64,000 bases of DNA from a virus, in IMG/VR virus record IMGVR_UViG_3300010371_000034, positions 1-64,000 of that record; one strand, given 5' to 3'. The position numbers and the translations under genes are program-made. Positions 6,059 through 52,913 of this stretch are shown here, piece after piece. The notes beneath the pieces were generated by a model. That model had not been told where the DNA came from and searched no databases. It saw only the letters and a program-made list of their open reading frames with translations. Numbering within the stretch: position 1 is the first letter of the stretch; every line of letters begins with the position of its first letter.

Positions 6059-7246
6059 CTAATCGAGAATCTGAAACAAATCGGTCAGATCGGCATAGGG
6101 GTGCGGCGTCAGGAACGGCGGACTGAGCGAGCCGTCCGCGCCCCGCTTCGTCACCACCGGATACCACAGCGCGTTTCCCGACCATGGCATCAAGTTGTGC
6201 CCGCGGAACACCACCGTGTCAGGATCGCGGGGTGGGTCGAACAGGTCGAAGTGCAACACCACGTCGCACTGCTGCTGCGCTATCGCCTCGTTGTTGGAGA
6301 AGCTCGGTATCTGCATGAGGTACGGCGGCAACTGCAAGGGTCGCATCCTGATCTCAGCGAAGTCGTAGCGCAGCGTGCCCATTAAGCAGCCAAACAACCT
6401 GTTGGCCACTATCGAGTCGTTGGTGCCGCCGCCTATCGGCGAGTTCACCGCCATCGACAGTGGATACCCGACCGGGTAGACGTACCCGGTGATCGGGTTG
6501 GTAGCCGCGGTCTGCGAGTACATCAGGTTGAGCGCCTGCCCGTTTGGCGTCGAGTCCTGCGCCACCGCGAACAGGGCAGCCATCGGCACCTCGTACCACG
6601 TCCGCGTGACCTTCTGGTGCGTGATCGCCTGCCCCAGCGCCCCTGGGAATCCGCTGTTTACGCTCGGCGATGGATCATAGACGAACTGCGCGCCCTCCCT
6701 GGTCAGTATCTGCACGTTGGACGCCCACGCTATATCGACGTAGCGCAGCCACTCCTGCTGGTATCCGTTTTCGTCGAGTATATCTTCGTCGGACCGTATG
6801 TAGTACGGCGGGCGCCAGAACTGTATGTTGATCCTCGCCCTGTCGAAGTCCGCCCACGGACCGGTGTTCAGCGGCACCCCCGCGCCCACGCCGCCCTCGG
6901 TGGGAGCGAACGATTCGTTAGGGTCGTACTCGTTCTTCCTTGGCGGTCCCAGTCCTGACACCTCCGTGATGTTCTTCACCCACAGCTGGTTGAAGTACGG
7001 GTGCTGCCAAGGCAGCTTGCGCCGCAGCGTAGACACACCTATCGGCAGCGCCAGAGTCGACTGGTCCTTCCACGAGTAGCCCAGCAGTGACTGCACCGCG
7101 GTCTCCAAGTCCTCCCAGTTTATTTGCATCACTTCTGACCAGGCCACGCCGTCGTGTCCGAGCGACAGGTTGAACTTTCCCTCGAACGCCCAGGGGAACG
7201 ACAACCCGGAGGTAGGCTGCACCTTCAATTCCAGCGGCATCGCCAT
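6059..7246 (-). CDS. distal tail / baseplate-region structural protein
   Basis: A 395-residue protein with no domain I can name. It is rich in aromatic residues and proline (WRPPYYIR, WYEVPMAALF, FDPPRDPDTVVFRG), as is common in tail-tip proteins. Its ATG overlaps the tape-measure stop (TAATG). In siphophage order the gene after the tape measure encodes the distal tail or tip protein, which is the basis for this call. Confidence 0.6.
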   Translation of the reverse strand: MAMPLELKVQPTSGLSFPWAFEGKFNLSLGHDGVAWSEVMQINWEDLETAVQSLLGYSWKDQSTLALPIGVSTLRRKLPWQHPYFNQLWVKNITEVSGLGPPRKNEYDPNESFAPTEGGVGAGVPLNTGPWADFDRARINIQFWRPPYYIRSDEDILDENGYQQEWLRYVDIAWASNVQILTREGAQFVYDPSPSVNSGFPGALGQAITHQKVTRTWYEVPMAALFAVAQDSTPNGQALNLMYSQTAATNPITGYVYPVGYPLSMAVNSPIGGGTNDSIVANRLFGCLMGTLRYDFAEIRMRPLQLPPYLMQIPSFSNNEAIAQQQCDVVLHFDLFDPPRDPDTVVFRGHNLMPWSGNALWYPVVTKRGADGSLSPPFLTPHPYADLTDLFQILD

Positions 7247-10200
7247 TACTGGAGCCTCTCCCTGAGCCAGTTGAGAAGCGCGTTGCCCCCTGCGCCGCTG
7301 GCAATGCCAGCTCCGAACCCGGCCAGGGCCGGCGGCGGGCCGGGTATCGCGTTTCTGAACGCCTGCGTCAGACCGTCCAAGGTGAATTTATCGAGTATTT
7401 TCTGTATGTTTTGAAGTATCTCCAGCTGCTTGTTGGCTATGCTCGGTAACTCGGCATGCGTCGGCTCGCCCGGCGTGGTGGCTGCCGCCAATTGGAGCGA
7501 TTGCTGGTATTGGTCTATGCTCTGGAAGCTGGCCTCGCGGGCGGCTGCCCCAGAGCCGCTCTTCGCTGCCTCTTTGTCTTTTGGTTTTATCAGCCCCAGC
7601 GACTCAAGGAACGACCGCAATTGCCTGGCGACGTAGCTCAGTGCGCCGGCCACGTTCTTGAGCATCGCTCCCACCACCTTCAGCGGGTTGACCATCTCCA
7701 CCAGCGGCCCGACCATATCCTTCATCAGCCTGCCAACCTCGGACAGCAGGCCGCCGGCCGACTCCTTGAGGTCCGCGAAGATCGAGCCGAACTCCCCGAA
7801 CGCCGACCTGATCGCAGCGAACCCCTCCTTGACCGGCGCCACCATGTAGCCGACCGCTCCGGTTATGATGTCCGACACGAAGCCGACCGCGCTGCCGACA
7901 GCGCCGAGGGCGTCCCCGATGTTCTTGAGCGTGCCGGTGAACAGCTCGCCGCTGCTGCTAACGCCCGTCAAACTCCCGACCACCTGCATGATGGTCTTGG
8001 GTATGATCAGCAGCACGCCGACCGCCTTGCTCAAGCCGTCCCAGAACTTCATAGCGCCCGCGATGTACGAGGCGACGTCGGTGATCATCCTGCCCATAGC
8101 TTCGAGCGACTTCGACAGTCCCTCGGTGCCGCCGACCATCCGGGTGACGATTGACACCACGGTGCCGAGCAAGGAGGCTACCGGCTTGAGCAGTTCCGAC
8201 AGAGTCCTCAGGACGACCACCATCCCCTTGGCGGCATCCGGCACGTACTTGGCCAGCGCATCACCAACCAGCTTCACCATCTCCGTGAATTGCCCGCGAA
8301 TCTGAGGCCCGACCGCTCCGAGCGCGTCGCGGATTATCTTGGAGGCATCGTCGAACGCCCCGCGCAGACCGCCCAGCGCCCCTTGCACGTCCCTGGTGCT
8401 GGGGATGATGTTGGCCAGCACGTCGCCGAACAGCCTGATGCCGTCCCGAACCATGTCCAGCACCGGTATGAACGCCTGGCCGATCACCGCCTGCACGTCG
8501 TCCAGCGCGTAGGACAGCAGCTTGATCTGGACCGGCGACGCCTTGCCCGCGAAGTTGGCCAGCGTCTCCAGCATCCCCTTGAGCGCTCCTGGCATCGCGC
8601 CAAGCTCGCGCACCACCGGACCCAGCAGGTCGCTGACGATCGGCATCCCCTCGATCGAGTCTGCCAGCTTGTCGAAGCCCTTGCTCGCCAAGTTCAGCCC
8701 GGCACCCACCGGCCCCAGCGGCCCCTGCAAGTCCGACAATGAGTCGTTGACTAGGTTGAGTCCGCCCGATATAACCTTGAACGGAATCTTGGCCAGCTGA
8801 CCGCCGACCTTAGCGGCGGCTTGGGCGGCAAGCTCCGCGAGACCTATCGGTCCGCCAGCCGCCTCCATCGCCACGCCCGCGCCCGCTCCGATGCCTGCCT
8901 CCGCCCCGCCGGTCATCGCGGCTCCTGCGACCTCGCCGGCAGCCTGCGGGCCGATCTTGCTTGGCATCGCAGGTGGAACCCGCCCAGGAGCCTGGCCCGC
9001 AGGAGCACGGACTTTAGCAGCCTGGGCGGGTCGTGGTTCACCCGCGGTCACGTTCAGTCCGGCACCAGCTATGCCGCCAGCCACGGCACCCAACGCACCC
9101 TTGATCCCCTGTCCCTTGAGCGCTCCTAACGCGCCGGCTACCAGCTGCGGCAAGTCTACTCCTTTGAGCAACCCAGACATCACGGACTTGATGCCCGCGC
9201 CCAGGCCGCCTTTCTTGATCGATGTCAGCACTTCCTTGATGTCCAGCTTCGGGCGCTCGGCTCGCTGCTGCGGTTCGGGCTGCTTGTGCTTTGCCTCAAC
9301 CGCTTCGCGCAGCTTGGCCTCCTGCTCCCTTATCGCCAGCAATTCCCGCTCCCTGCGGACCGTCTCCTCCATCGCGGCGGGGTCCAGCCTGGCCTGCGCC
9401 TCGGCGACCGCCCGCTGGTGGGCGACCTCGGACTCCTCCCGCGAGAACTCCAGCCGCTTCTTGACCACCTCCGGGTCCAGCAGCAACCGCTGGCGTTCCA
9501 ATTCCGACCGCTGTTTGGCCAGCTCCTTGGTCACCTCCCTCATCACCTCGGCGCGAGCGTCCAGAGCTTCGGCAGGCTTGGCTTGAAGCTTGCGCTCGGC
9601 CTCAAGCGCGTCAGCGTACTTCTGGTGGGCCTCGGCCAGCAGGTTCTCCTGACGCACCCGCTCCTTGATCACGGCCGGGTCGCTCTGGTCTTCGGTCTGT
9701 TGGAGGTTGGTCACCGTGGTCCTGGTGATGTGCTCGACCGACTCGTCCCGCCGGCGCTTGATGCCCGCCTCTGACTGCCTGGCCGCGGCCTGCTCGATCC
9801 GCACGTCCCTTATCTGCCGCTCGATGTCCAGGCGCTTGACCTCGTGCCGCGGGTCGTCAAGCGCCCTCATCTCCAGCAGCTTGTCGCGCTCCTGCTGGAG
9901 GGCGTCCAGCATCTTTTCCTCTGCCGCCAGCCTCATGGCCCGCGGAGAGTTCTGCATGGAATGGGCCAGCTGTCCCTCGATCTCCGACTGCTCGCGCATC
10001 GCGTCGGCGATCTTGTCTTCGATCTCAAGACGCTTGCGGGTTGCGGCCTCGGCCATTGCCGGCGTGGCGCTGCCCTGGTTCTTGAGCGATTGGTTCGCCT
10101 TCTCGATGTCCTGCTGAACCTTCAGCTGGCTGAGCAGCTCGTCGGTTATCTTTTCAAGGTCCTGCCGGCGCTCGACCAGGTCCGGCAGTATGCCCAGATC

Positions 10201-10401
10201 GTCGAACGCCCGCTTGAGATCGGCGGTCGGCAGCTTGATCTTGGCCAGCGCATCTGCCATAGCCCGGCCGGTGGCGACGCCGGCCTCCTTGCCGGCGGAG
10301 ACGGCGTCCCCGACGAACCTGGACAGCTTGCGCTCCAGCGCGCCCTGGTCCATGTCCGGCGTGAACACCACCCTCAGGTCGTCGTCGCTAGGTAGCGGCA
10401 C
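7246..10401 (-). CDS. tail tape measure protein
   Basis: A 1051-residue protein. The first ~390 residues are long charged helices (Lys/Glu/Arg/Gln-rich, coiled-coil-like). The centre, ~400-560, is Gly/Ala-rich and hydrophobic (LGAVAGGIAGAGLNV and similar). The rest alternates amphipathic and hydrophobic stretches. Length, composition and position directly after the frameshifted chaperone pair are typical of the tape measure, which sets tail length and is ejected with the DNA. The GTG start at 10399-10401 follows AGGGGGAAG and overlaps the chaperone stop. No peptidase or lysozyme domain is evident. Confidence 0.9.
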   Translation of the reverse strand: MPLPSDDDLRVVFTPDMDQGALERKLSRFVGDAVSAGKEAGVATGRAMADALAKIKLPTADLKRAFDDLGILPDLVERRQDLEKITDELLSQLKVQQDIEKANQSLKNQGSATPAMAEAATRKRLEIEDKIADAMREQSEIEGQLAHSMQNSPRAMRLAAEEKMLDALQQERDKLLEMRALDDPRHEVKRLDIERQIRDVRIEQAAARQSEAGIKRRRDESVEHITRTTVTNLQQTEDQSDPAVIKERVRQENLLAEAHQKYADALEAERKLQAKPAEALDARAEVMREVTKELAKQRSELERQRLLLDPEVVKKRLEFSREESEVAHQRAVAEAQARLDPAAMEETVRRERELLAIREQEAKLREAVEAKHKQPEPQQRAERPKLDIKEVLTSIKKGGLGAGIKSVMSGLLKGVDLPQLVAGALGALKGQGIKGALGAVAGGIAGAGLNVTAGEPRPAQAAKVRAPAGQAPGRVPPAMPSKIGPQAAGEVAGAAMTGGAEAGIGAGAGVAMEAAGGPIGLAELAAQAAAKVGGQLAKIPFKVISGGLNLVNDSLSDLQGPLGPVGAGLNLASKGFDKLADSIEGMPIVSDLLGPVVRELGAMPGALKGMLETLANFAGKASPVQIKLLSYALDDVQAVIGQAFIPVLDMVRDGIRLFGDVLANIIPSTRDVQGALGGLRGAFDDASKIIRDALGAVGPQIRGQFTEMVKLVGDALAKYVPDAAKGMVVVLRTLSELLKPVASLLGTVVSIVTRMVGGTEGLSKSLEAMGRMITDVASYIAGAMKFWDGLSKAVGVLLIIPKTIMQVVGSLTGVSSSGELFTGTLKNIGDALGAVGSAVGFVSDIITGAVGYMVAPVKEGFAAIRSAFGEFGSIFADLKESAGGLLSEVGRLMKDMVGPLVEMVNPLKVVGAMLKNVAGALSYVARQLRSFLESLGLIKPKDKEAAKSGSGAAAREASFQSIDQYQQSLQLAAATTPGEPTHAELPSIANKQLEILQNIQKILDKFTLDGLTQAFRNAIPGPPPALAGFGAGIASGAGGNALLNWLRERLQ

Positions 10402-15540: not shown

Positions 15541-15990
15541 TCACACCGAGCCGGACGGGAAGGCGAAGATGCCCTGGTTCATGTACCCGCAGGTGAACGT
15601 CACCGCGTTGGCTCCGGAGCAGTCCGCCCCGGTCGAGCTGGTGCGGATACGCATGAAGGGGAACGACCAGGGCGTGATCGCGTCGATGATCGACGTGTAG
15701 AACTCGACACCCGTCAGGTCGTCGCGCGGGTACAGGCCCGGCGGCGTCGCGCCCGTCAGGTCTTCGGGGTTGAGGTGGGCGTCCCAGTTGCCGCCGAAGT
15801 CTCCCGCGCAGCCGATGAAGCCCAGGATGCCCTCGTTGTACGCCTGCTCGGTCGCCAGGTCGAAGTCCTCGAAGTTGTTGGTGACGATGTCGTCGCCCGT
15901 CACGTTGACCACCCAGCTGGTGTAGGCCAGCGCCGTGCCGCCGATCGAGATGCGGCTGCTCTTGGATGCTCTTTGATACGCGGAATCCAC
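15541..15990 (-). CDS. probable major tail tube protein, 3' exon after group I intron
   Basis: A 149-residue frame. The N-terminal pattern SRISIGGTALAYTSWVVNVTGDD...TNNFED, followed by GILGFIGCAGDFGGNWDA, is typical of short phage tail-tube proteins that form the beta-barrel tube ring. The only in-frame start, GTG at 15988-15990, lies inside the P9 hairpin of the intron and has no ribosome binding site. The true N-terminus therefore probably comes from spliced RNA, and the exon boundary lies somewhat downstream of 15987. Without splicing the protein may not be made efficiently. Confidence 0.65.
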   Translation of the reverse strand: MDSAYQRASKSSRISIGGTALAYTSWVVNVTGDDIVTNNFEDFDLATEQAYNEGILGFIGCAGDFGGNWDAHLNPEDLTGATPPGLYPRDDLTGVEFYTSIIDAITPWSFPFMRIRTSSTGADCSGANAVTFTCGYMNQGIFAFPSGSV

Positions 15991-16508
15991 TGTTACCAGT
16001 GGCGCAGACTATACATTCACCTGACCGTGGCGGGGAGAAGCCGCTTCACTCTTCTAGGTCAGGGCCGGCGTGTTATGGCTTTCGCCATCCAAGGTTCTCA
16101 CCCTTGAGTCGTTACGGGGATCGTCGGGCACTCGATCTTACCCACGGGATTGCCGCTGGTCGTACAGTACGGTTCCCCCGTTTTGAGCCGGTCGTCGTGC
16201 TGAGTCACCCCAACACCGGGCTGTCACTCAACCCGTTGCTAAAATTTCGGCCATGTAGTTACCCTCCACTTTTCTTGGCTGTTCGTTTAGCGGCTCCTGC
16301 CCGTAAGTTAGCGAGGGCTTCCGGTCCACGCCTCATACCACGCAATTTTGCGACCCTCTTGGCAACGGTCTCGGCTGATTGCTTCTTGCCAAGAGCCCTT
16401 TGCCGTAACATCTCTATCTGTTCTGGTGTCTTCTTCAGCTTGTTTTTGTGCTCCTCCGACAATTTCCGGCCCGTTAGTTTCTGCCTTATCGCCTCAATGT
16501 CAACTGGT
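15987..16508 (-). mobile_element. group I intron (T4 td-like core) with ORF in P1 loop
   Basis: On the minus strand the core elements appear in order: P2 hairpin (16201-16230, TGAGT/ACTCA), AACGGGGGAACC (16171-16182), AATCCCGT (16144-16151), TAACGACT (16107-16114), TATAGTCTGC (16004-16013) and a P9 hairpin CCACTG-GTAA-CAGTGG (15987-16002). The same strings, with small changes, occur in the phage T4 td intron as I remember it. CAACGGGT (16231-16238), next to P2, can pair 7 of 8 with ACCAGTTG (16501-16508) at the end of the upstream gene as P1. The splice-site U-G pair is not evident, so exact borders are uncertain; the 3' splice site lies beyond P9. Confidence 0.75.
16259..16462 (-). pseudogene. 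NUMOD3-like remnant of a homing endonuclease
   Basis: A 67-residue frame, open upstream to about 16499, containing NUMOD3-type DNA-binding repeats (IRQKLTGRKLSEEHKNKLKK, then QRALGKKQSAETVAKR). In intact homing endonucleases these modules sit C-terminal to a GIY-YIG or HNH domain. No such domain precedes it, because the upstream structural gene ends right there. It lies in the P1 loop of the group I intron, so it is best read as the truncated end of an intron endonuclease. Confidence 0.65.
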
Positions 16509-17435
16509 CGCGCCGAACACGTCCACCTCGAAGGTGATCGCGTTGGTCCCGTCCAGGTTGATCAGCTTGATGTTCTCGTGAGTCGAGTCGATGGTCACGA
16601 AGCCTGCGGCGATCGGATCGGCGTATCCGGTGAACCCGCCGGTCGCGACCGTCCGCTGACCGACCTCGACGCTGGGTACCGTCGCGCCGGTGTAGCCTGC
16701 ACCGCCCGCGATCAGCGTGACGGTGGTCGGCACTCCGGAGCCGTTGGTGACCACTCCCACCGTGCAGCCGGAGCCGCCGGCCTGCGTCGGGGAGACCAGG
16801 AACGAGCTGCTCTTGGGGTATCCGGTGCCGGCCGCGCCGATCGACACCGCGGACACCGCCCCGGCCGCGGTCAGGTCGAGCGTCAGGCCGGAGCCCGTGC
16901 TGCCGAAGATCGCCGCCGGAGTCGCCGGCCCGATGTTGGTGACCGCCCCTATCGACGTGGCGGTGGGCGGCGGGGATATGGTCGGGTCATCGGTGGCCGA
17001 CAGGAGGCGGAACGCGCAGCCCTTGATCCTGGCCAACGTCACAGCGGTGCGGCCGATGATGTCGGTCATCCCGTTGAGGTTGACCGTCGCCGAGCCGCCC
17101 GCGACCACTCCCTGCTGGAAAGAGAAGAACTCGTCGCATCCTCCGCTCTGGGCGTTGGTCGCTTGAGTGCCCAGCGACTGCCTCTTGTTGATCGTGCCGG
17201 TGTTGGTGGTCGGCGAGTAGGCCACGCCCGTAAGAGCCACCTGCGCGTTCCAGCTGATCGACAGGCCCAGCGAGCCGGTCAGGGCGGACAGCCCGGTGAA
17301 ACGCATCCTGCGAGCCTTGCGGCGGAACTTGCGCCACCGCCTGGGCTCGCGCTTCGGCGGAACCGCCGAGCAGTCCAGTTCGGCATGGTCCAGCAGCAGC
17401 AGTTCTCCCCTGCTATGTTCAACGATGTCGAGCAT
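16500..17435 (-). CDS. tail structural protein with beta-rich repeats; possible 5' exon
   Basis: A 311-residue protein. It has a basic N-terminal segment (REPRRWRKFRRKARRMRF), then a beta-rich body with Gly-rich repeats such as AAGTGYPKSSSFLV and AGGAGYTGATVPSV, often seen in phage tail or baseplate proteins. It ends at TGA exactly where the putative intron P1 begins. It may be a complete protein, or splicing may extend it into the tail tube exon. Start ATG follows GGAG. Confidence 0.65.
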   Translation of the reverse strand: MLDIVEHSRGELLLLDHAELDCSAVPPKREPRRWRKFRRKARRMRFTGLSALTGSLGLSISWNAQVALTGVAYSPTTNTGTINKRQSLGTQATNAQSGGCDEFFSFQQGVVAGGSATVNLNGMTDIIGRTAVTLARIKGCAFRLLSATDDPTISPPPTATSIGAVTNIGPATPAAIFGSTGSGLTLDLTAAGAVSAVSIGAAGTGYPKSSSFLVSPTQAGGSGCTVGVVTNGSGVPTTVTLIAGGAGYTGATVPSVEVGQRTVATGGFTGYADPIAAGFVTIDSTHENIKLINLDGTNAITFEVDVFGATS

Positions 17436-19335: not shown

Positions 19336-20331
19336 TCACCAAGAAATATCGCGATACCGGCTGAGCACGCTGCGGTTGTTGTCCAGGTCCAGGAACTCCG
19401 GGCTGGTCAACACGCTGTAGCTCCATGCTCCTAGATTGGCGCTGGATAGCTCGGAGCCCATCGGCATGTTGCGGACCATAGCCGCCACCAGCTTGGTCGC
19501 CACGTTCTGGACGTCGTAGGGCACCGTCGCGTAGCCTGAGCTGTAGCAGACCTTGATGTTGCGGTAGCCCCTGGGCCAGCACGGCAGCCGGTAGCTCGAC
19601 AGCTTGTCGTTGCCTCCCCAGACCGAGGGGTAGCTGCCGATGAAACCCGCCGCCATGAACCCGCCGATCCTGCGCAGCGTGCCCGCGTAGCTCTTGCGCT
19701 GCTCCCTGTCGGTGTCCACCATGAAGTTGACGCCCTGTATCTGCAAGGTCTGCGGTCCGAACGGTCCCTGCCCGCTGGCGTATGGCGACACCCCAGATGG
19801 AGCCTGCGCGGCGTATGCCGTCGGGTCGAACCACACCGCCGGCTGGCTGACCGAGTTCAGCCCCATCTGCGAGCTCAGCGTGCCTGACCCGCCGACGCAT
19901 CCCGTCAGCGAGGTCGGGGTGGTGCCGCTGTAGGTGAACGTCGTCCAGGTCGCTGCCCCTGTCTGCACCGCAGCGCACGGCTGCTGCCCGTCGCGGTTGG
20001 CCGGATCGAACATCGGGCCGCCGCTGTCGTCCAGCGTGGTCGCCACGTTCAGGTCCCAGCTGCTGCCGTCAGTCGGAATCTCGAAGCCGCTGGAGGCTGC
20101 CGCCACCGTCGTCGTGCCCGACCACACCGGAAACTGCCTGAGCACTATCTGCGGCATGTTGTTGCCGTCGTAGTACTCCGTCCGCGCTTGCAGCTCGATG
20201 TCCTGCCTGCACCAGCTCTTGATCGATAGGTCGGCGGACAGTACCAGCTGCTGTAGCCACTGGTTGGTCACCTTGGCGGATGACTTGACGCTCGGCACCA
20301 GCCGGCACAGTTCTATGGTTGTCAGCGGCAT
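19336..20331 (-). CDS. head-tail connector/adaptor protein
   Basis: A 331-residue protein. The helical N-terminus (MPLTTIELCRLVPSVKSS, then LQQLVLSADLSIKSWCRQD) is typical of SPP1 gp15 / HK97 gp6-type adaptors. A long beta-rich insert (~60-260) and a helical C-terminus (VQNVATKLVAAMVRNM) follow. It is larger than the usual ~100-residue adaptors because of the insert. Confidence 0.6.
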   Translation of the reverse strand: MPLTTIELCRLVPSVKSSAKVTNQWLQQLVLSADLSIKSWCRQDIELQARTEYYDGNNMPQIVLRQFPVWSGTTTVAAASSGFEIPTDGSSWDLNVATTLDDSGGPMFDPANRDGQQPCAAVQTGAATWTTFTYSGTTPTSLTGCVGGSGTLSSQMGLNSVSQPAVWFDPTAYAAQAPSGVSPYASGQGPFGPQTLQIQGVNFMVDTDREQRKSYAGTLRRIGGFMAAGFIGSYPSVWGGNDKLSSYRLPCWPRGYRNIKVCYSSGYATVPYDVQNVATKLVAAMVRNMPMGSELSSANLGAWSYSVLTSPEFLDLDNNRSVLSRYRDISW

Positions 20332-23920: not shown

Positions 23921-25027
23921 CTAGTTGAGCACCACGATGCTGCTTACTTGCGAGCCGGCAGCGTCGGGCAAGGTAACGAAGTTGTCAAGAATCGGTTTGC
24001 CGTCCTGCCGCAGCCACACCCGGAACATCGCTTGGTTGCGCTGGAAGGCGCTGGTGTTTGTCGAGTACGGCGCATGCTCGGACACGTCGATCACCACCTG
24101 CATCCGGTCGCCGATCGCGTACAGCGACGGGTCGGTCAGGATCAGGTCGCCCTTGGTGCCGATAGCCGGCAGCTTGTCGGTGACGTACAGCGGCCGGTTG
24201 GCCAGGTATCCCACGCACTCATCGGCGTCGTCCCGCCGGTTGATGTTCGGTATGTAGCCGGTGATCCCTATGATGTCGGCCAGCGCCGTCACCGAGCAGC
24301 ACCATATCGCGTTGGCCCAGCCCATCGGCAGCAGCATGGCCACCATCGCCTTGACGTCGGCCTGAGCGATATGGTTGGAGCCAGCCCTGTTTTGCAGCAG
24401 CGCGCACGGGGCGTTTAGCATGCCCAGCGGCAGGGAGTTGGCCGCGCCCGTGCCGTTGAAGAACGCGTACTCCGCGTACCACGCTCCCGCCTGTCCGAAG
24501 TTCTGTAGCAGCCGGTCATCGGCGCCAGGACCCATGTCCATCAGCAGTTGGTTGGAAGCGATCGCGTAGTACAGGTTGTCCCAGGCGTGCAGCGTCATTG
24601 AACGGAACTGCGGCTCGAACTCGTTGGCGCTGAGCAGCCCCATCTGGGCGCCCCAGGTCGACAGGATGCCGCCGAAGAACGGCACGGTGCCGGCGGCCTG
24701 CGCGGTGGTCGCGTCCAGCATCGGGCAGGTCATCTCCAGCGACGCCATCGGCTGCACGTGAGCCCTGCGATAGATGATCGACCGCTCAGCCAGTGGCTTG
24801 ATGAACCGGGCGGTGTAGTCCATCGGCACCAGCCAACCGCCGGCGGCGCCCGACAGCTCGTCGTTGGCGGCAGACTTCTGTACGGAAGTGTGGACGCCAC
24901 CCTGCCGCTCGATCGCGTCGGGGTTGCCGCGCGCGACCGCCCGCAGGAACCCGCCGAAGGACTTGCGTTCTTCGGTAAGTCCTGAACCGTTGCGGGTCGG
25001 TACCGTTCTGTCGATGACTGCCGCCAT
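23921..25027 (-). CDS. HK97-fold major capsid protein, second copy
   Basis: A 368-residue capsid protein. It aligns end to end with the C-terminal ~320 residues of the 25102-26520 product: GG(W/Y), PMLD.(T/M)TAQ..GT.P..GGIL, SNQLL, PLG(M/I), LTDPSLYAIGDRMQ against LSDFSRYVVGNRMD, and a (VV)LN/LH end. The delta domain seen in the longer copy is short here. Both may be incorporated, or one may serve as a minor capsid or vertex protein. Confidence 0.8.
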   Translation of the reverse strand: MAAVIDRTVPTRNGSGLTEERKSFGGFLRAVARGNPDAIERQGGVHTSVQKSAANDELSGAAGGWLVPMDYTARFIKPLAERSIIYRRAHVQPMASLEMTCPMLDATTAQAAGTVPFFGGILSTWGAQMGLLSANEFEPQFRSMTLHAWDNLYYAIASNQLLMDMGPGADDRLLQNFGQAGAWYAEYAFFNGTGAANSLPLGMLNAPCALLQNRAGSNHIAQADVKAMVAMLLPMGWANAIWCCSVTALADIIGITGYIPNINRRDDADECVGYLANRPLYVTDKLPAIGTKGDLILTDPSLYAIGDRMQVVIDVSEHAPYSTNTSAFQRNQAMFRVWLRQDGKPILDNFVTLPDAAGSQVSSIVVLN

Positions 25028-25101: not shown

Positions 25102-26520
25102 TCAGTGCAGCACGACGAACGGGCTGATTTGCCACCCTTGGGCATCCTGAATCGGTTGCTGGAGCCAGGGCTTGCCGTCGCAGCGCGTGATAACCCTCCA
25201 CATCAGCTGGTTGCTCTGGAACAGCACGTGCGGGCTGACGTCGATCTGCATGTCCATGCGGTTGCCGACCACGTACCGGCTGAAGTCCGACAGCATCACG
25301 TCGCCCGTGGTGCCCAGCGTCGGCAGGCACTCGGTTAAGTACACCGGCAGGCCGTTGAAGAACACCATCGGCAGCTTCATCGCGGCCGGCCCGACCTGCC
25401 CGTTGCCGAACGGGCTGACCCAGATCAGCTGGTTGCGGGTAGAGTTGTCCACCATCTGCGCCAGCTCCGGCAGCACGCTCTGGTGCATGATCCAGCAGGC
25501 GGTGTCCCAGCTCCTGATCTGCGCGTGCGCCATCATCGCGCAGGCGTCGGCGTACTTGAAGTGTCCGGGGGTCGTGCGGCCCTGGAGCAGCGTCGCGGGA
25601 CTGTTGATGATGCCCAGCGGCATCGAGGCGCCGGCACCGAGGCCCTGGAGGAAGGCGTACTGCTTGTAAAAGCCGATGCCCCAGCCGAACAGCTGTGTCA
25701 GCAGCGCGTCCAGGCCGATGCCGTTGTCGGCGAGCAACTGGTTGGAGGAAACCGTCACGCCCACCAAGTCCCACGCGGTCCAAGTTGACTGGCGGAACTG
25801 CGGCTGCGTCTGGTTGTAGGTGACCGCCTCCGGCTGCCACTGGAACAGGATGCCGCCGCCGTAGGGCGTGGTGCCCCGGCTCTGCGCGGTCATGATGTCC
25901 AGCATCGGCAGGTCCATCGTCCTGCTGTTCATCGGAATCTGCTTGCACCGCTGCTCGACGAAGGCGTCCTCGCCCGCGATCGTCTGGAGCTCGGCCATGA
26001 ACTGCGGCGGGATTGTGTAGCCGCCGGCCATGCCGCTGTTCTCGGCCAGCGCGGTCTTGCGGCGCTCGTTGAGCAGCACCTTCTTGGTCCGCGGGTCCCA
26101 GCCGGGGACGCCCTTCTCCTTGGCCTTGACCACCGGCGTGCAGCCGTATTGCGCCTCAAGCTTGTCAGCGTCGTAGTCGCTGGCCCAGTCCGGCAGGTTG
26201 CGGGCGTACGCCATCGCGTCCTTGTCGCCGGCCAGCGCGGCCATCTTGATGAAGCACGGACCCATGCCGCTGAGCCGCTTCTCCTTGCCCGCGGTCAGGT
26301 GGTTGACCGCCGCGGAAGCGTAGGCGCCGCCCAGGTTGGCGTACTTGTATTTGTCCACTTCCCACGGGCCGGGAGCCTCCTGCGCGAATCCGGTGAACAG
26401 GCCGCGGGGATCGACCCCCTTGGCGGGAGTGCGCTCCATCTCGTCCAGGCGCTTGGTCAGAGCCTTGGTCATCTCGACCGAGCCCATGATCAGTTTGGTT
26501 TCTTCGGCGGTCAGAGCCAT
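25102..26520 (-). CDS. HK97-fold major capsid protein
   Basis: A 472-residue protein starting at MALTAEETKLIMGS (ATG 26518-26520 after GGGGAG). The N-terminal ~150 residues are helical and resemble a scaffolding delta domain. Then come GGYTIPPQFMAEL, LPMLDIMTAQSRGTTPYGG, VSSNQLLADNG, SMPLGIINSP, LSDFSRYVVGNRM and a PFVVLH end, the usual order of an HK97-type capsid. It follows the prohead protease in transcription order, with a terminator-like hairpin just before it. Confidence 0.85.
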   Translation of the reverse strand: MALTAEETKLIMGSVEMTKALTKRLDEMERTPAKGVDPRGLFTGFAQEAPGPWEVDKYKYANLGGAYASAAVNHLTAGKEKRLSGMGPCFIKMAALAGDKDAMAYARNLPDWASDYDADKLEAQYGCTPVVKAKEKGVPGWDPRTKKVLLNERRKTALAENSGMAGGYTIPPQFMAELQTIAGEDAFVEQRCKQIPMNSRTMDLPMLDIMTAQSRGTTPYGGGILFQWQPEAVTYNQTQPQFRQSTWTAWDLVGVTVSSNQLLADNGIGLDALLTQLFGWGIGFYKQYAFLQGLGAGASMPLGIINSPATLLQGRTTPGHFKYADACAMMAHAQIRSWDTACWIMHQSVLPELAQMVDNSTRNQLIWVSPFGNGQVGPAAMKLPMVFFNGLPVYLTECLPTLGTTGDVMLSDFSRYVVGNRMDMQIDVSPHVLFQSNQLMWRVITRCDGKPWLQQPIQDAQGWQISPFVVLH

Positions 26521-26540
26521 CTGTCGTCTCCCCTTTGTCA

Positions 26541-26591
26541 AAAGAAAAACCCGCGTTGACCGGCACCGTGCGGTGCAGCCATTCGCGGGTT
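26541..26591 (-). terminator. terminator-like hairpin 20 bases before the capsid gene
   Basis: On the minus strand AACCCGCG pairs with CGCGGGTT (8 bp). An inner perfect hairpin GCACCG-CA-CGGTGC is nested within, and TTTTCTTT follows. It separates the 26649 gene from the capsid ribosome binding site. No promoter fits between hairpin and start, so it may attenuate transcription or protect a processed 5' end. Confidence 0.65.
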
Positions 26592-26648
26592 CTGCGGGAG
26601 TCGCCACCAGGCGGGCCGCCGATAGTCCGTGTTCGGGTGTGTTGTCTT

Positions 26649-26831
26649 CTACTTCGCTTCCACCTTGCTCTCTATCCACGTCCGCCTGACGCAGCCCTCG
26701 TTCATCACGGCCCGCCAGGCTATCTCGCCGGTCACCTTGTCGGCCCGGCGGTTGATCAGGTCGCGCAGCACGGTCTCCGCCAGCTTGCGCTCCTGCTCGG
26801 TCGCCATCTTCAGCAGTTGGTCCATCGCCAT
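26649..26831 (-). CDS. small helical protein
   Basis: A 60-residue protein (MAMDQLLKMATEQERKLAET start, ATG at 26829-26831 overlapping the upstream stop as TAATG). Predicted mostly alpha-helical and charged. No recognised family. It lies between protease and capsid genes. Confidence 0.55.
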   Translation of the reverse strand: MAMDQLLKMATEQERKLAETVLRDLINRRADKVTGEIAWRAVMNEGCVRRTWIESKVEAK

Positions 26832-27163: not shown

Positions 27164-27362
27164 GTTGCCTCGCTATCATCGCCCTGGCCAGCTGCGCCCC
27201 CACCGCTCTCGCAGTGCAGCTGGTCGCGTACCTGGCGGCGAAACCCACTTCTCGTTTTATTCCGACCCCCGTAAGACTGCCGGTCATCACGTCGGCGTAT
27301 ACCCGGCCCCACAGCACCTGCCAGCCTGGCAGCACCGGCACGCCTGGGTATCTGTCCGTCAT
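27120..27362 (-). CDS. hypothetical protein
   Basis: An 80-residue protein. The start overlaps the protease stop (ATGA) and the end overlaps the next gene by 44 bases. A short aromatic N-terminus (YPGVPVLPGWQVLWGRVY) is followed by an Ala/Arg-rich helix. No recognised family. Confidence 0.5.
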   Translation of the reverse strand: MTDRYPGVPVLPGWQVLWGRVYADVMTGSLTGVGIKREVGFAARYATSCTARAVGAQLARAMIARQHAAVAKKTDLERAP

Positions 27363-30300
27363 CGCCGGCTCCCGTTGAGGCCGACACGCTTGACGGTAGT
27401 CTCAAGCTCCATCGCGGAGTCCCGCAGCATGTCGAACAGCGCCTTCTGCTCTTCGTTGGTCGATTCCTCGGCCTTCTGCTCGGTCTCGGCGCCGGCTTCT
27501 TCCTTCTCCTCCTCCGGCTCGTCCTCCTTGGTCTCCTCCGGGTTGCCCATGTCGTTGAGGGCCTTCTTCAACCGCTTGGCGTTGTAGGACAGCGCGTCCT
27601 TGTGGTGTTCGGGAACGTCGGGGGCGCCCTTGAGCGACTGCATGTGGTCCAGCGCCTTGCCCATCGCGGCCTCGTGCGTGCCGTCCTCCAGCCCCTTGGC
27701 CAGCGCGTCGCCGTGCATGTCCAGCGCGGACTTGTGGTGCTCCGGCATGTCGTGCGCCACGGCCATGCCTTTCATCGCCGCGGACACTGACTTGATCGTC
27801 TCGGCGTGCTCCTCCTTCAACTCGGCGGGGTTGCCCTCGTCGTGCAGGTCGCCCATCGCGCCCTTGCCGCTGTCCAGATTGCCGGGGTCGGAGACGGAGG
27901 ACTTGCGGCGGAGTGATTTATATGCGGGGGATTTTCCAATCTTTTTGTCATCATGACCGTCTTCATATCCTGTGTTATAGTCTTGAAATTCCCTTGTACC
28001 ATTTTTGTATGGATTATTATGAATTTTACCACCATATCCAGCAACATAACCTGCCTTGAAAGCAGTGTCCAATGCTTTCTGCGCATGCCTCGGCAGCACC
28101 AGCCACTTGCGGCCGTCGCTGCCCGACTTGACCACGCCGCCCGCCGCCAGCACCTTGGCCACCTTCGCGGCCGACGCCTTGCGCGTGCCCCAGCGGCCCT
28201 TTTCGTTCTGGTAGCGCTCCAGTATCTCTTCAGTCGACGGATCGGATTCCTCCGCCTCGTCGCCCAGCGCTCCCTGGTGCTCTGGCTCGGCTGCTTCCTC
28301 GGCCGCCCACTCCGGCGAACCGATCTCGGACTTGTCCTCCTCGCCCTCCAGATCAGCCTGCAGCGCGTCATCCTCTTCCATATCGACCTCGCCGCCCAGG
28401 TCCATGTCCACTTCGGGAATCTCCCCGCGATCGACCAGGTTGGCCTCGCCCACTTCCTCGTTGGTGGTGTCGCTCAACCCCTTGCCGACCTCCTCGATGT
28501 CCTTCTCGCTGTGCTCGCCGAACATCGCCTTCAGCGACTCGGCCCGCTCGCCCAGCGACGCCAGGTGCTCGGTCAGCGCCTTATGCGCCTTGTTCTCCGC
28601 GCCGGTCTGCGGGTCAAACGGAGTGATGTCCTTGAGCGCCTCGGTCAGGTAGTCGCGGTCGGACTTGGCGGACTGGTACAGGTGAGCCATCGCCACTTCG
28701 TGGGGCGCGACGTCCATCGGGGCCGGGTCGTCGCTTTGCACCTCGGCGCCATCGTCGACCGATTCCTTCTGCACTCTCGTCTTCATGTTCTTTCTCCCGG
28801 CCAGCAGCTCCTTCGCTCCGTCCACCCAGCCAGCGTCCCAGTCCTCGCGGTACTGCGGGCCGCGGCCCTCGTTGTCGTTCTTGTAGGGGTTGGTGCTGCG
28901 GGCGCGGCCATCCCACGCGGCGACGTAGCCTTGGTCGTATTGGGTGTCCATGTCCTTGCGGCGGTTGAACGACTTCTTCAACCACACTTGCAAGGTATCC
29001 TTTGTACCTATCTGCCGTGGGTTAGGCACGCTGGCCAGATACCCGCCTAGTTTGTAATCCTCACTGTCCTCCGGCTTATCATATAACCAGTCGACCAGCT
29101 GGTCGTACTCGCCGTCGGACATCGTCACCCGCTTGCCGGCCTTCAGGTCGAGCCACTTGCTGCCCAGTCCCGACTTCTGCGCGATGTACCCGCCCGACGC
29201 GCCGGAGGTCTCGCCAAGCGATTTTTCAACCTTTCCATCATTCACTTCCGCAATCGTTTCTCCATGCTCATTTTCAATACTCACGCCGAATGATGGTTGC
29301 AATTCTTCTTCCATCTTTATTGCAGCGACAATAGCTTGCTGTTCTGAGCCGTTTACCGTTTTAGTTCCTTTGGAGGAAACTAAACGGTAACGATTTTTTT
29401 GCACCAGTCCTTTTGCCTTCCCGCCGCTGCCGTCGTCCAGGCCGTTCAGCCAGTCCTTGCCCGCCGGAGTGTGCGGATCGTAGGGGCAGTCCCCACTGGA
29501 CTTGCCACGCTTTCCCGCGGCGAACCCCTCGCGGTACTCCTTGCTGCCGTAGTCCTTCCGCAGCGCCTTCTCCCTTCCGGTACCGCCGCAAGCCGTGCAT
29601 TCGATCATTTCGCCGTTGCCGCTCCTGACCCATCCACGACCTTTACAGCGTTTACAGGGGTCTACGCCAGCTTTCAGTACCTTCGTCACCCGCGCCATCG
29701 ACCCCTTCGCCACCGCCCGGCCGTCGGCTCGGTGCGCGACGTGGATCGGTCCCTGCTTGGTGCGGTAGGTGGCGATGTATCCCTTGCCCACCCGTCGCAG
29801 CAGGCTCTTCTTGCCGCACGCCGCGCCGAACATGCCGCGCTGCGCCTCGGTCAGCGGCTGGCCGTTAGCCTCACCGTCGCGGAGGATTTGGCAGGCGTCC
29901 GAGGAGGTGATCTCTTCAGAGGGTTGCGCCTTGGTCATATCGATCTCCCCCTCGCCGCGGCCGTGGTCCATGTCGGCCTGGACGAGGGCCTTGTGCCGCT
30001 TCCACAGCGCTTTCGCCTTGCCGCACGGGCAGGCGTCGCCCTTGGAGCAGGCGGAGCAGCCGCAGGATTTGCGCGTAACTTCACGGCTCTTGATCTGCTG
30101 TTGTTTCGGCATCGGACACCACCCCGTGAAGCAGCCGCCGGATTCGTTGGTCGATTTGATCGCGCACGTGCCGCGGATGCACTTCTCCATCCGGTTGCTG
30201 ATGTGGCCATGCTCCTTGTCCGCGATGTCCCGCCACTCGCACATCTTGTCGTGGCAGTCGCGGCACCAATCCTTCAGCTCGGCCGGCGCGGACTTGTACC

Positions 30301-30931
30301 ACTTGGGTTGCACCGTGGCGAACGGGTTGCTGGGCACGCCGACCCAGCTGCCCTCGGTCTCGTCCCACCGGATGAAGTCGTATCCGCCAATGTCGCCTTG
30401 GTGCTGGTGCGCCTTGACCCGTTCCTTGCGCTGCGCCTCGATCGGCACGAACGCTACGGAGGTGGCGTTGACGAACCCGCGGTCAACCTTGCCCTTGAGG
30501 AAAGCGGCGTCCGGGTCCACCATGTCCCACCAGCACCACTGCTGCATCCGGTTCTCTTCCGGGAAGCAGCACAGCCGGCCGTCCGGCGACATCGCCTTGC
30601 CCACCGGTATCTGCCACTCCTGGTGCCCGAAGAACCACACCGGGTTCCTCTGGTAGTTCCCAAGGTAGGCGCCCATCGGGTGGACCGTGTCGCCGACCCG
30701 GTCCTCTTCAAGGCTGACCAGCGTAGCGACCGTGTACTGCTCCTTGCGGTCTTCGGCGCCCGTCACCCCGCTGCGGCCGTATCCCAGCACCGCCGAACCG
30801 TCTGGAGAGTCTTTGTAGATGTAGCAATAGTTCTCGACCAGCGACTTGGTCGACAGCGAGCCATCGCGCAGCGCCTTCTCGATCGCGCCGCGGCGGGAGG
30901 CCACGTCAGCTACGGATGGGTGTACCAGCAA
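27359..30931 (-). CDS. prohead protease fused to zinc-finger and RMF-like modules
   Basis: A 1190-residue protein with a TTG start (30929-30931) after AGGGGA. The N-terminal ~180 residues fit HK97-type (S78) prohead protease: VWFFGHQEWQIPVGKAM with the catalytic His and FVNATSVAFVPIE with the Ser. Cys-rich segments follow (CGCSACSKGDACPCGK near 290; a DnaJ-like pair CKRCKGRGW / CTACGGTG near 420-450). Three modules resemble ribosome modulation factor, with Gly-Tyr/Phe, (C/N)PY and a late Trp/Tyr-Gly: near 465-505, 665-705 and 950-995. The remainder is acidic and helical, like a scaffold. Two AT-rich stretches (27925-28080, 29219-29402) mark inserted modules. Normal proteases of this family are ~200-600 residues. 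Confidence 0.75.
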   Translation of the reverse strand: MLVHPSVADVASRRGAIEKALRDGSLSTKSLVENYCYIYKDSPDGSAVLGYGRSGVTGAEDRKEQYTVATLVSLEEDRVGDTVHPMGAYLGNYQRNPVWFFGHQEWQIPVGKAMSPDGRLCCFPEENRMQQWCWWDMVDPDAAFLKGKVDRGFVNATSVAFVPIEAQRKERVKAHQHQGDIGGYDFIRWDETEGSWVGVPSNPFATVQPKWYKSAPAELKDWCRDCHDKMCEWRDIADKEHGHISNRMEKCIRGTCAIKSTNESGGCFTGWCPMPKQQQIKSREVTRKSCGCSACSKGDACPCGKAKALWKRHKALVQADMDHGRGEGEIDMTKAQPSEEITSSDACQILRDGEANGQPLTEAQRGMFGAACGKKSLLRRVGKGYIATYRTKQGPIHVAHRADGRAVAKGSMARVTKVLKAGVDPCKRCKGRGWVRSGNGEMIECTACGGTGREKALRKDYGSKEYREGFAAGKRGKSSGDCPYDPHTPAGKDWLNGLDDGSGGKAKGLVQKNRYRLVSSKGTKTVNGSEQQAIVAAIKMEEELQPSFGVSIENEHGETIAEVNDGKVEKSLGETSGASGGYIAQKSGLGSKWLDLKAGKRVTMSDGEYDQLVDWLYDKPEDSEDYKLGGYLASVPNPRQIGTKDTLQVWLKKSFNRRKDMDTQYDQGYVAAWDGRARSTNPYKNDNEGRGPQYREDWDAGWVDGAKELLAGRKNMKTRVQKESVDDGAEVQSDDPAPMDVAPHEVAMAHLYQSAKSDRDYLTEALKDITPFDPQTGAENKAHKALTEHLASLGERAESLKAMFGEHSEKDIEEVGKGLSDTTNEEVGEANLVDRGEIPEVDMDLGGEVDMEEDDALQADLEGEEDKSEIGSPEWAAEEAAEPEHQGALGDEAEESDPSTEEILERYQNEKGRWGTRKASAAKVAKVLAAGGVVKSGSDGRKWLVLPRHAQKALDTAFKAGYVAGYGGKIHNNPYKNGTREFQDYNTGYEDGHDDKKIGKSPAYKSLRRKSSVSDPGNLDSGKGAMGDLHDEGNPAELKEEHAETIKSVSAAMKGMAVAHDMPEHHKSALDMHGDALAKGLEDGTHEAAMGKALDHMQSLKGAPDVPEHHKDALSYNAKRLKKALNDMGNPEETKEDEPEEEKEEAGAETEQKAEESTNEEQKALFDMLRDSAMELETTVKRVGLNGSRR

Positions 30932-42204: not shown

Positions 42205-42756
42205 TTAAACCCGCTCCACCTCGGACACCTTGCCATCGTCCGAGTGCCTGACCACCAGTCGCGTGGGCCTCTCCATCTTCTCCATCCGCTTGACCAGCCC
42301 CGCCAGCGTCGCGATCATCTCCCTATTGGACCGCTCGATCGCACCCATCGTATCGGCGTTGGCCTTGACGAAGGACTTGACCAGCTGCTCGATCGACTCC
42401 GACAGCGCGATCCCTTGGCTTTCGATCGCGTCGACCACGCCTGAGAAATCCACCACGGCGTCTGCCGGCTTGACCGTCACCTCGTTGACCGGCTGCATCA
42501 CCGCAATCGATGCGCTCAGTTGCTTGATCGCCTCCAGCACCACCCCCTGGTCCACCGCTACGCGCTCGTTGTGGAGCAGTACGTCGGCCAATCCCTTCTC
42601 GATACCGTCGGCTAAGCTCTGCTGGTCCACCACCGGCCGGTCGGCCTGGTATTCAAGTGCGTTCAGGCGCTTGACCAATGGCTGGAGCACCCGCTCCTTG
42701 ATCGAGTCCACCAGCGCCTTGACCTTGACGCCGTCGCTGACGGTAATCGCGCTCAT
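42205..42756 (-). CDS. coiled-coil protein after the portal gene
   Basis: A 183-residue helical protein (MSAITVSDGVKVKALVDS start) whose ATG overlaps the portal stop (ATGA). Repeated amphipathic helices, no named domain. It could be a portal-associated or scaffold-like factor. Confidence 0.55.
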   Translation of the reverse strand: MSAITVSDGVKVKALVDSIKERVLQPLVKRLNALEYQADRPVVDQQSLADGIEKGLADVLLHNERVAVDQGVVLEAIKQLSASIAVMQPVNEVTVKPADAVVDFSGVVDAIESQGIALSESIEQLVKSFVKANADTMGAIERSNREMIATLAGLVKRMEKMERPTRLVVRHSDDGKVSEVERV

Positions 42757-45700
42757 AGCACCCCCTCCAGCATCTTGTCGATCTCCTGGCGACAAGCCGC
42801 GTACTCGTCTTGCTCCTTCAGCCGCGGCCGCAGTCGCTTGCCCGCCAGCGCCCCGTGCACGCCCCTGATCGTCTCGGCGACTGCAACCACGGCCGCGATG
42901 TTGCCCGGTATCGGCATCGTCGCCAGCATGCCCACGGCCATCGCCAGCGCTCCCTTGCGCCCGTAGCGGCTCTCAAGCGACAGCCACTTGTCGGCAAGCC
43001 ACCTGCCGGCCTGCTGGACCGACAGCGCCTTGGCCCGCATCTCTCTGGTGGCCGGGTAGACGCGGTCCCGCTTCTCCGCATCGTACAGCTCGCGCAGGTG
43101 GAACTGCACCTCGACGACCATGCCGCAGGGCGTCCGGTAGTTGCGCAGCATGTCCCGGTAGCCGCCCTGGAGCGGCTGCGCGAACCGGTCCTTCTGCCGC
43201 ACCAGCACCAACCGCCCGTCGATCTCCTCGGCCGCGTCCCGCAGCTCTTGCTCGGTGTCTCTAACCACCGACGCCCGCACCACGTCCAGCAGCCGCGACC
43301 AATCGCCGCCGTAGTCCCGCTCGACCTTCTCCTCGGCCCGCTCAAGCGACTTGATCGGAACCTGCACCGCGCCTTCGACGCCTTGCAGCGCCCGGTCCAG
43401 TTCGCCCTGCGCCTGGACCACCAGCGCGTACAGCTCCTCCGGCTTGTCCACCGGCTGCTTGACCATCTCGCCGCCACGCTGCTCGACCTCGGCCAGGATG
43501 TCCGGCCAGGGGGAGCGGCCGTCTATCGCCCGGTCGTCCACGTACAGGTCCGCCACGACCTTGGCGCTGGCTCCCGCGGGCTGGTCGCTGTTGGTGTTGA
43601 TCGAGTCGTATTCTATCCCGCTGCCGTCCAGCTGGTCCTTGATCGCCTGCACGTCGCCGCGGGTCGTCCACACGATGATCTTCCATCCCCGGTTCCGCAG
43701 CGCCGCCAGCGCCTCCCGTGCCCCGTCGCGGACCTCGCCGAAGTGCCCCTCGCCCCGCCAGCCGTCGTACTCCAGGATCGTGCCGTCCAGGTCCACGGCC
43801 ACGGTCTGCTGGTGCTTGTAGACGGTCCAGCCCTTGCGCACCAGCTGCTTGCTCGGCTTGCCGTTTGGCTTGTCAATCTTGCCGCCGTCGGCCTGCGCCT
43901 CTTCGACTTCTTGCGCTTGCTCGTTCGCGTCGTCGGCCTTGCCGCTGTCGCTGACTTCCTCGCTGGGCAGGTCCTCGTTTGACTCCACCGTGCCCAGCTT
44001 GTCGGAGTCTTTGCCGGCTGCCATCGACTCGGAGTACTGCCGCACAAGGTCGGTCAGGTCGTCCCCCTTCTCCTCGACGTTGACCGGCGCTGGCATCGGA
44101 CCGCCCGGACCCTGGACCCACGGGTTGTCGCCGCCCATCGCGTATGGCTTGCGGCCGCGCAGCACCCGGACCTCGTTGGTGGTGATCGCGGGCGGGCTGG
44201 CCTGCATGTCCACTTGGAGGTCGCTGTTGACCTGCGCGGGGTCTGCCGGCGTCAGGTTGTCGTACCATATCCTTGCCTCGCGGACGCCGCCCGACCCGCC
44301 GTGGCCCGACCCGGTCAGACTGGACCACGCGGGAGTCTCCTCGTCGAACTCCTTGGCAAGGTGCTTGGTCTCGACTTCGCCCTCCTGGGCCAGCAGGGGG
44401 TTCAGGCCGTTCTCGCAGTTTCCAGTAACGTGAACCTTGCCATTTCTGCGCACGAAGAACAGACCTGTCGGCACCGTTACACACCACACCGTGCCGTCGT
44501 ACTCAACGGTGCTGCGCATGTCTGGTGATAGCACAACCTCTTGCCTGGTTGATACGTCAACGCGGTACGCTACCTTCCTGTCGCTGCGTGGGTCTGGTTG
44601 TACACATACAGTTGCAGAGAATCCACACTTGACTGCGATCTCTGCAACGTCATCAGCAAGTTGCTTGCTAACCGTCTTGTAATTGGAGCTAGAGTTGCCG
44701 GTGTTCTCGCAGTCCATCCATGCGTGCCCGTCTCCTTCCATAAGAGCATCAAACAGTACCCTCAAGTCCTCAGCCGACCATGACTTTACCTCTTCAGGAA
44801 CGCGCTTGTTCTGGGAACCAATGCCTAGTGATACTAAGTAGTCATAGATTCCCTTGTCGCTCGCTTTCCAAGTGTGGCAACTGGTGTCTCTAGGGTCAAC
44901 CTTGTCTGTCCACTTTAGTGGCAGCGCAAGGATTCCTGCCTTTACTGACTCAAACGTTCTTGTTGATTTCTCTGATTGCGTAATACATATTCCCCACCCT
45001 CCGTTCGTCCTGTCGCAAAGATGCCCCTCACTCAGGTAGAGGCCAAGAAACCGCAACCACACCTTCCTGTCTACGCACCTGTCGTCCAACTCATGCACTA
45101 TATTCCTGCTACCGCATGGGTTGTATGATGGGAATGACACGTACTTCGGCGGGTCAGTTGCTCCTATTAGCGGTGCCGACCTCTTTATCCTGTACGTCGT
45201 GGCAGGCGTCATGTCGTCTATCTTGATCGTTTCCCAGGGGTAGTTCAGGTGTTTCCTTGACGCAGCCGGGAACCGCTGCAAGTGTACCCGATGCCCTGGA
45301 GTCATGCAGGCGTCAACGCGCTGCCCTTGCCACAGGTGCATCGGCCCCTTATACGGCTCAACGACGATCCTAGACGGTTTGTGGTACACCATGCTCTGGG
45401 ATGCTTGATCGTAGCAAGCGACCACAGTATCGTCAGTCAACTCCCAGCACTTCTTCCAACCACAGTCAGTCAAGCACTCCGTGTCATCATCCAAGCACCA
45501 GCCGGCCAGCGTCGCCAGCACCGAGCCGAACGTCATGTCTTGCACCATGCCAAGTGCAGCTTGAGGCGTGCCAAAGCCGGCGCAGATCGCCTTGGCCATC
45601 TGGTCGAACCCCTCCATGTAGGCCATGTCGGTCGGGGAGAACGACAGCGGGGTGACCACCGTGCCGCTGGGGGTGAACAGCGGCTTGCCCACGTTGAACT

Positions 45701-52260: not shown

Positions 52261-52913
52261 GCCACCACCTCGTGCCTGTCGACCACGCTCAGAGGGGCCA
52301 GCGCGGCGGTCCTTTGCGCCACCGCCCGCCACAGGTCCGGATGGTCCTCAAGTACTTCCCGCACCGCATCTTTTATCGCCGCTATCACCGCCAGCGCCTG
52401 CTCCAGCGTCACCAGCCCCGGTTTGCACTCGTCCAGACCCAGCAGTTCGCGCTCCGCCTCCAGCGTCCGCATGATCGTCGTCAAGTAGGAGTTGTCCGGC
52501 AGCCGCCCTTCCTTGGTCACTATCTTCTTCAGCAGCACCTCGCTGGTGATGTAGTCCTCGACCCCCACCGCCTCGCTGTCCGTGCCGTACTCCTCGACCA
52601 GCTTGTGCGAGTCCTCCATGCTGCGGTCGTATGCCAACCACGCCTCGCGTCTGATCTCCCGGTACTGTTCGATCTTCGTGTTGACCTCGTCCTGCCGCTC
52701 CTTCAGCCGCGCAGCCTTGTACTCCGCCCGCAGCTGCTTCAGGTACACGCTCACCTGGACGTTGGTGATGTTGATCCCGTTCGACCGCTCCAGCTCGTCC
52801 CGCACCTGCCACAGCGAGTAGCCGCGGCGGTCCAGCTTGGCCACCAGCGCCTTGACCTCCTCACGCTGCGTGTTGGAGAACTTCGGTCCACGCTTCTGTT
52901 GTTCGCCGGCCAT
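52257..52913 (-). CDS. terS: terminase small subunit candidate
   Basis: A 218-residue protein from MAGEQQKRGPKFS (ATG 52911-52913 after AGGA). The N-terminal ~60 residues form a helix-turn-helix-like segment (QREEVKALVAKLDRRGYSLWQVRDEL), followed by long helices (LKERQDEVNTKIEQYREIRR) and a C-terminal helical part. A DNA-binding domain plus oligomerising coiled coil, placed immediately before the ATPase gene, fits the small terminase that recognises phage DNA. Confidence 0.7.
   Translation of the reverse strand: MAGEQQKRGPKFSNTQREEVKALVAKLDRRGYSLWQVRDELERSNGINITNVQVSVYLKQLRAEYKAARLKERQDEVNTKIEQYREIRREAWLAYDRSMEDSHKLVEEYGTDSEAVGVEDYITSEVLLKKIVTKEGRLPDNSYLTTIMRTLEAERELLGLDECKPGLVTLEQALAVIAAIKDAVREVLEDHPDLWRAVAQRTAALAPLSVVDRHEVVA

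Follow-up and report, generated by a model that had tools for sequence, protein, structure and literature searches.

The locus considered here raises the question of where a phage gene begins when the only start codon of its unspliced open reading frame lies within an RNA hairpin. The window, meaning the whole stretch of 64,000 nucleotides that was analysed, is part of a 78,777-base IMG/VR virus record. The genes that frame the problem are the following.

19336-20331, minus strand: head-tail adaptor (phrog_442)
between the head-tail adaptor and the 311-residue gene, minus strand: several small genes
16500-17435, minus strand: 311-residue gene
16259-16500, minus strand: NUMOD3 open frame DIEAIRQKLTGRKLSEEHKNKL..., 80 residues, between the 311-residue gene and the intron-bearing gene
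15541-15990, minus strand: 149-residue open reading frame, the unspliced tube frame
7246-10401, minus strand: tape measure protein, further on from the 149-residue frame

The product of the 149-residue frame is likely a tail tube protein. This assignment is based on the look of the sequence and on gene order, with the head-tail adaptor upstream and the tape measure gene downstream. Comparison with Pfam, PHROG, and NCBIfam gave no family match, and the AlphaFold model of exon 2 alone, with a pLDDT of 33, is too poor to use. Searches of phages, viral contigs, and genomes returned no homologue of the tube protein, intronless or other, and searches via the major head protein and via the portal returned no relatives. 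The search via the head-tail adaptor yielded one distant contig (L005), in which a different protein occupies the tube position.

It is very probable, judging from the sequence, that this tail-tube-like gene of a GC-rich phage is interrupted after codon 8 by an ORF-less group IA intron of 252 nt. The elements of the proposed intron and its exons are listed below in the order of transcription.

16262-16267, minus strand: Shine-Dalgarno (SD) sequence GGAGGG of the interrupted gene
16231-16254, minus strand: exon 1, ATG GCC GAA ATT TTA GCA ACG GGT (MAEILATG), from the sequence, in frame with exon 2
15979-16230, minus strand: putative group I intron, IA type with P7.1/P7.2, ORF-less
16217-16235, minus strand: P1, exon CGGGU plus intron UG (16235-16229) with CAGCCCG (16223-16217), from the MFE fold
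16197-16216, minus strand: P2 hairpin GUGUUGGG-GUGA-CUCAGCAC, from the MFE and centroid folds
16187-16191, minus strand: P3 5' strand CCGGC, partner GCCGG at 16069-16065, from the fold and at the same place in relatives
16144-16181, minus strand: P4 (ACGGGG / UCCCGU) and P5 (CCG, CUG / CAG, CGG), from the pattern and alignments
16116-16143, minus strand: P6 (GGG 16143-16141 / CCC 16118-16116) and P6a (GAUCG / CGAUC), by analogy with relatives
16007-16110, minus strand: P7, GACU 16110-16107 / AGUC 16010-16007, enclosing P7.1, P7.2, the P3 3' strand, and P8
16020-16063, minus strand: P8, CCUGACC / GGUCAGG, from the fold and relatives
15987-16002, minus strand: P9, CCACUG-GUAA-CAGUGG, from the fold, containing GTG 15990
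15979-16005, minus strand: P9.0, GCG 16005-16003 / CGC 15982-15980, abutting terminal G 15979, with the putative 3' splice site at GCG|TAT
15541-15978, minus strand: exon 2 of the tail-tube-like protein, 145 codons and stop, from the open reading frame

The anatomy of the element follows the group I plan. The P1, P2, P3, P7.1, P7.2, P8, and P9 helices are all present in the MFE fold, at positions matching those in T4 and IMG/VR introns, and the core helices P3 to P8 follow one another as in group I introns, the guanosine site of P7 included. Between P7 and the P3 3' strand lie the two hairpins characteristic of subgroup IA, P7.1 and P7.2 (CAAGG/CCUUG and AUGGC/GCCAU). P1 folds as a local hairpin of 7 bp upstream of P2 (CGGGUUG-AGUGA-CAGCCCG), and with the 5' exon ending at the first U (16231/16230) this hairpin has a U.G pair at the 5' splice site (CGGGU|UG with CAGCCCG). 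The string AUUC-CGC-G after P9 permits P9.0 to form immediately before the last G, and in P10 (UAUCA with UGACA) only four of five positions pair. In the P6 stretch, the MFE fold prefers a pairing different from the analogy-based one. The P3 helix by itself is not significant in the window (444 of 1000 shuffles were equally good), and the MFE z-score is modest, at -1.41.

The exons provide an answer to the question of the start codon. The ATG at 16254 opens exon 1, eight codons before the 5' splice site, and is preceded by GGAGGG, whose anti-SD duplex of -9.8 kcal/mol is one of the strongest for genes of this phage. The first codon of the intron in the exon 1 frame is TGA, and reading of the unspliced RNA stops there. 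The only start of the unspliced tube frame is GTG 15990, located, as originally predicted, in P9: it falls in the 3' arm of the hairpin (15992-15987), is without an SD, and has an anti-SD duplex of only -2.8 kcal/mol. Excision of the intron joins GGT|TAT in frame and gives a fused open reading frame of 153 codons, the product of which, MAEILATG-YQRASKSSRISIGG..., begins MAEILATGYQRASKSSRISIGG.... The earlier suggestion that splicing supplies the start of the tube protein thus gains support from an ATG with a strong Shine-Dalgarno sequence upstream of the 5' splice site. As the searches returned no tube homologue, the proposed exon join is based on RNA anatomy and reading frame; P9.0 next to terminal G 15979, together with the frame, suggests a 3' splice site at GCG|TAT. 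If splicing follows the established group I mechanism, an exogenous guanosine would attack after GGT, the freed U would then attack after the terminal G, and the exons would join as MAEILATG-YQRASKSSRISIGG.

Statistical support for the intron comes from several sources. The core strings of the T4 td type were correctly predicted to occur in order, and they lie on the minus strand (ACGGGGGAACC...GGCAATCCCGTG at 16181-16143). A single copy of the motif ACGGGGNAACC-N(8-34)-GRCAATCCCGTG is present in the window, and 100 shuffles yielded none. Scanning of IMG/VR with two variants of the motif gave 50 loci (31 + 19) with group I hallmarks downstream. On some IMG/VR contigs (L019, L026, and L042) group I cores are clustered, with several in a span of a few kilobases. 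The motif had been chosen without regard to the J6/7-P7 and J8/7-P7' segments, for which weight matrices were built from 20 introns excluding that of the window. The P7/P7' segments downstream of the motif score 23.9 bits; the best of 2000 shuffles of this stretch reached 21.7, and the best of 848 other positions in the window 18.0.

The original prediction had proposed an Infernal search with group I models, and the outcome depended on the model. Rfam RF00028 gave no match in the window, either at the gathering score (50 bits) or at E 10. In a control at the gathering score, the same model missed the known introns of T4 td and nrdB and found those of nrdD and Twort. Model R1, built on a MAFFT alignment with poor P3/P8 columns and later superseded by R2, detected group I matches in all 36 motif loci searched outside its training set; its match in the window (9.3 bits, E 0.3) covers the P4-P5 motif alone. 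Model R2 was constructed from Twort I2 and I3, T4 td with its ORF removed, T4 nrdD, and four IMG/VR introns, with the window excluded and with P3, P4, P5, P6, and P9 written in. Its alignment shows strong covariation, including in P3. R2 matches the window at 15987-16195 over model positions 1-194 of 194 with an E-value of 4.8e-4, which is rough owing to a short calibration and comes from a model half of whose training set was picked via the motif that the window shares. This is the sole match in the 64 kb up to E 10. Together with the core motif and the P7/P7' scores, it supports the earlier recognition of a group I intron.

The boundaries and consequences of splicing can be read in other ways. 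The intron was initially placed at 15987-16508, with P1 reaching into the upstream 311-residue gene; on that reading CAACGGGT is a guide for the end of this gene, which serves as the 5' exon, and the two structural genes become fused by splicing. At the level of letters, 7 of 8 positions of CAACGGGT are indeed Watson-Crick complementary to ACCAGTTG at the end of this gene. Such pairing is at chance level, however: when random 31-base targets are compared with the same region, 33% of them show one such match or more. It also provides no U.G pair at a splice site. A local P1 of 7 bp is present, and the supposed guide CAACGGGT is itself the end of exon 1, behind the SD and ATG. The fusion is therefore scarcely credible, and the span of the element contracts to 15979-16230, with 16259-16500 belonging to the separate NUMOD3 frame. 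It is quite improbable that the same intron uses another 3' splice site, such as AAG|AGC with the product MAEILATGSSRISIGG. This site is also in frame and follows a G, and intronless homologues with which the protein N-terminus could be compared are missing, but it is farther from P9 and, unlike GCG|TAT, has no P9.0 GCG/CGC next to the terminal G.

A degenerate, non-splicing intron, with the tube protein made from GTG 15990 or the gene dead, would be consistent with the poor Rfam and R1 scores and with the absence of known tube homologues. It is nevertheless very unlikely, as all helices, the U.G pair of P1, P9.0, and the reading frame are intact, and GTG 15990 is without an SD and inside the P9 stem. 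In a further reading, which appears improbable, tube synthesis depends wholly on splicing, since the intron is preceded by an exon of 24 nt that contains the sole start codon. The intron would then act as a tail-assembly switch, and the NUMOD3-only protein might be its DNA- or RNA-binding partner.

The NUMOD3 open frame (bases 16500-16259, sequence IEAIRQKLTGRKLSEEHKNKLKK...) adjoins the interrupted gene. Its NUMOD3 match is below the Pfam cut-off, and it matches phrog_24910 with E 1e-7 and the homing endonuclease family phrog_314 with 0.004. Two relatives in IMG/VR, one of them (L057) beside a terminase gene and the other on L060, are full-length GIY-YIG endonucleases, their GIY-YIG domain being recognised by eye, and carry such repeats towards the C-terminus. 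In the 80-residue frame the GIY-YIG nuclease domain is absent and NUMOD3-type repeats alone remain. Since the nuclease half is absent, the frame is read as a remnant, presumably the DNA-binding end of a free-standing GIY-YIG homing endonuclease. The arrangement resembles collaborative homing, in which an ORF-less intron stands beside a free-standing endonuclease gene (PMC3984707, PMC10448857), in that the intron is ORF-less and endonuclease-derived sequence adjoins the interrupted gene. It differs in that the endonuclease here is without a nuclease domain, and consequently homing is not expected now. By analogy, collaborative homing may once have operated at this locus, and the ancestral GIY-YIG endonuclease may have aided the spread of the intron.

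One of the closest known systems is Twort, whose tail tube gene (orf142) contains three small ORF-less group I introns (PMC11878797). Both phages would thus have a small ORF-less group I intron in a tail tube gene, the identity of the tube being presumed here. In the myovirus Twort the three introns lie in the last third of the gene, whereas the present phage has one, GC-rich and after codon 8. With the group IA2 introns of T4 td and nrdD, the window intron has in common the P4-P5 core strings, P7 GACU/AGUC, P7.1, and P7.2, and with td also a stop codon right after the 5' splice site. In contrast to it, the td and nrdD introns carry endonuclease genes and reside within nucleotide-metabolism genes. 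Introns in phage DNA polymerase A genes (six loci, L006, L014, L015, L022, L028, and L029, in which polA was recognised by its motifs) have J3/4 UCAAA followed by ACGGGG, as here, and similar bases before P3'. Their insertion point in polA is the IGFG motif, and their P7.1/P7.2 exceed those of the window intron in length. The J3/4 UCAAA shared with the polA introns is at most a hint of descent.

Because the Twort tail tube introns are already known, the window intron represents a further example of a known arrangement. A 2025 survey found that phage introns otherwise favour genes of DNA and nucleotide metabolism (PMC11878797). The present case adds a structural gene where genes of DNA metabolism predominate, and it bears on the question raised in that survey of why such genes are favoured. 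An intron after the eighth codon implies that the true start of the gene lies upstream of the intron, and an intron after so short an exon leads to misplacement of the tail gene start. The Rfam group I model misses some phage introns, among them the GC-rich intron of the window and T4 introns split by an ORF.

Several other features of the minus strand may be recorded. Two adjacent genes, at 23921-25027 and 25102-26679, each match the major head protein family phrog_10. Beside the head genes, at 27359-30931, an ORF of 1190 residues includes the Pfam domain of ribosome modulation factor (RMF), with E 9.9e-12. The portal ORF and another large ORF, at 42753-46769 and 49822-52332, contain LAGLIDADG / intein-like segments.
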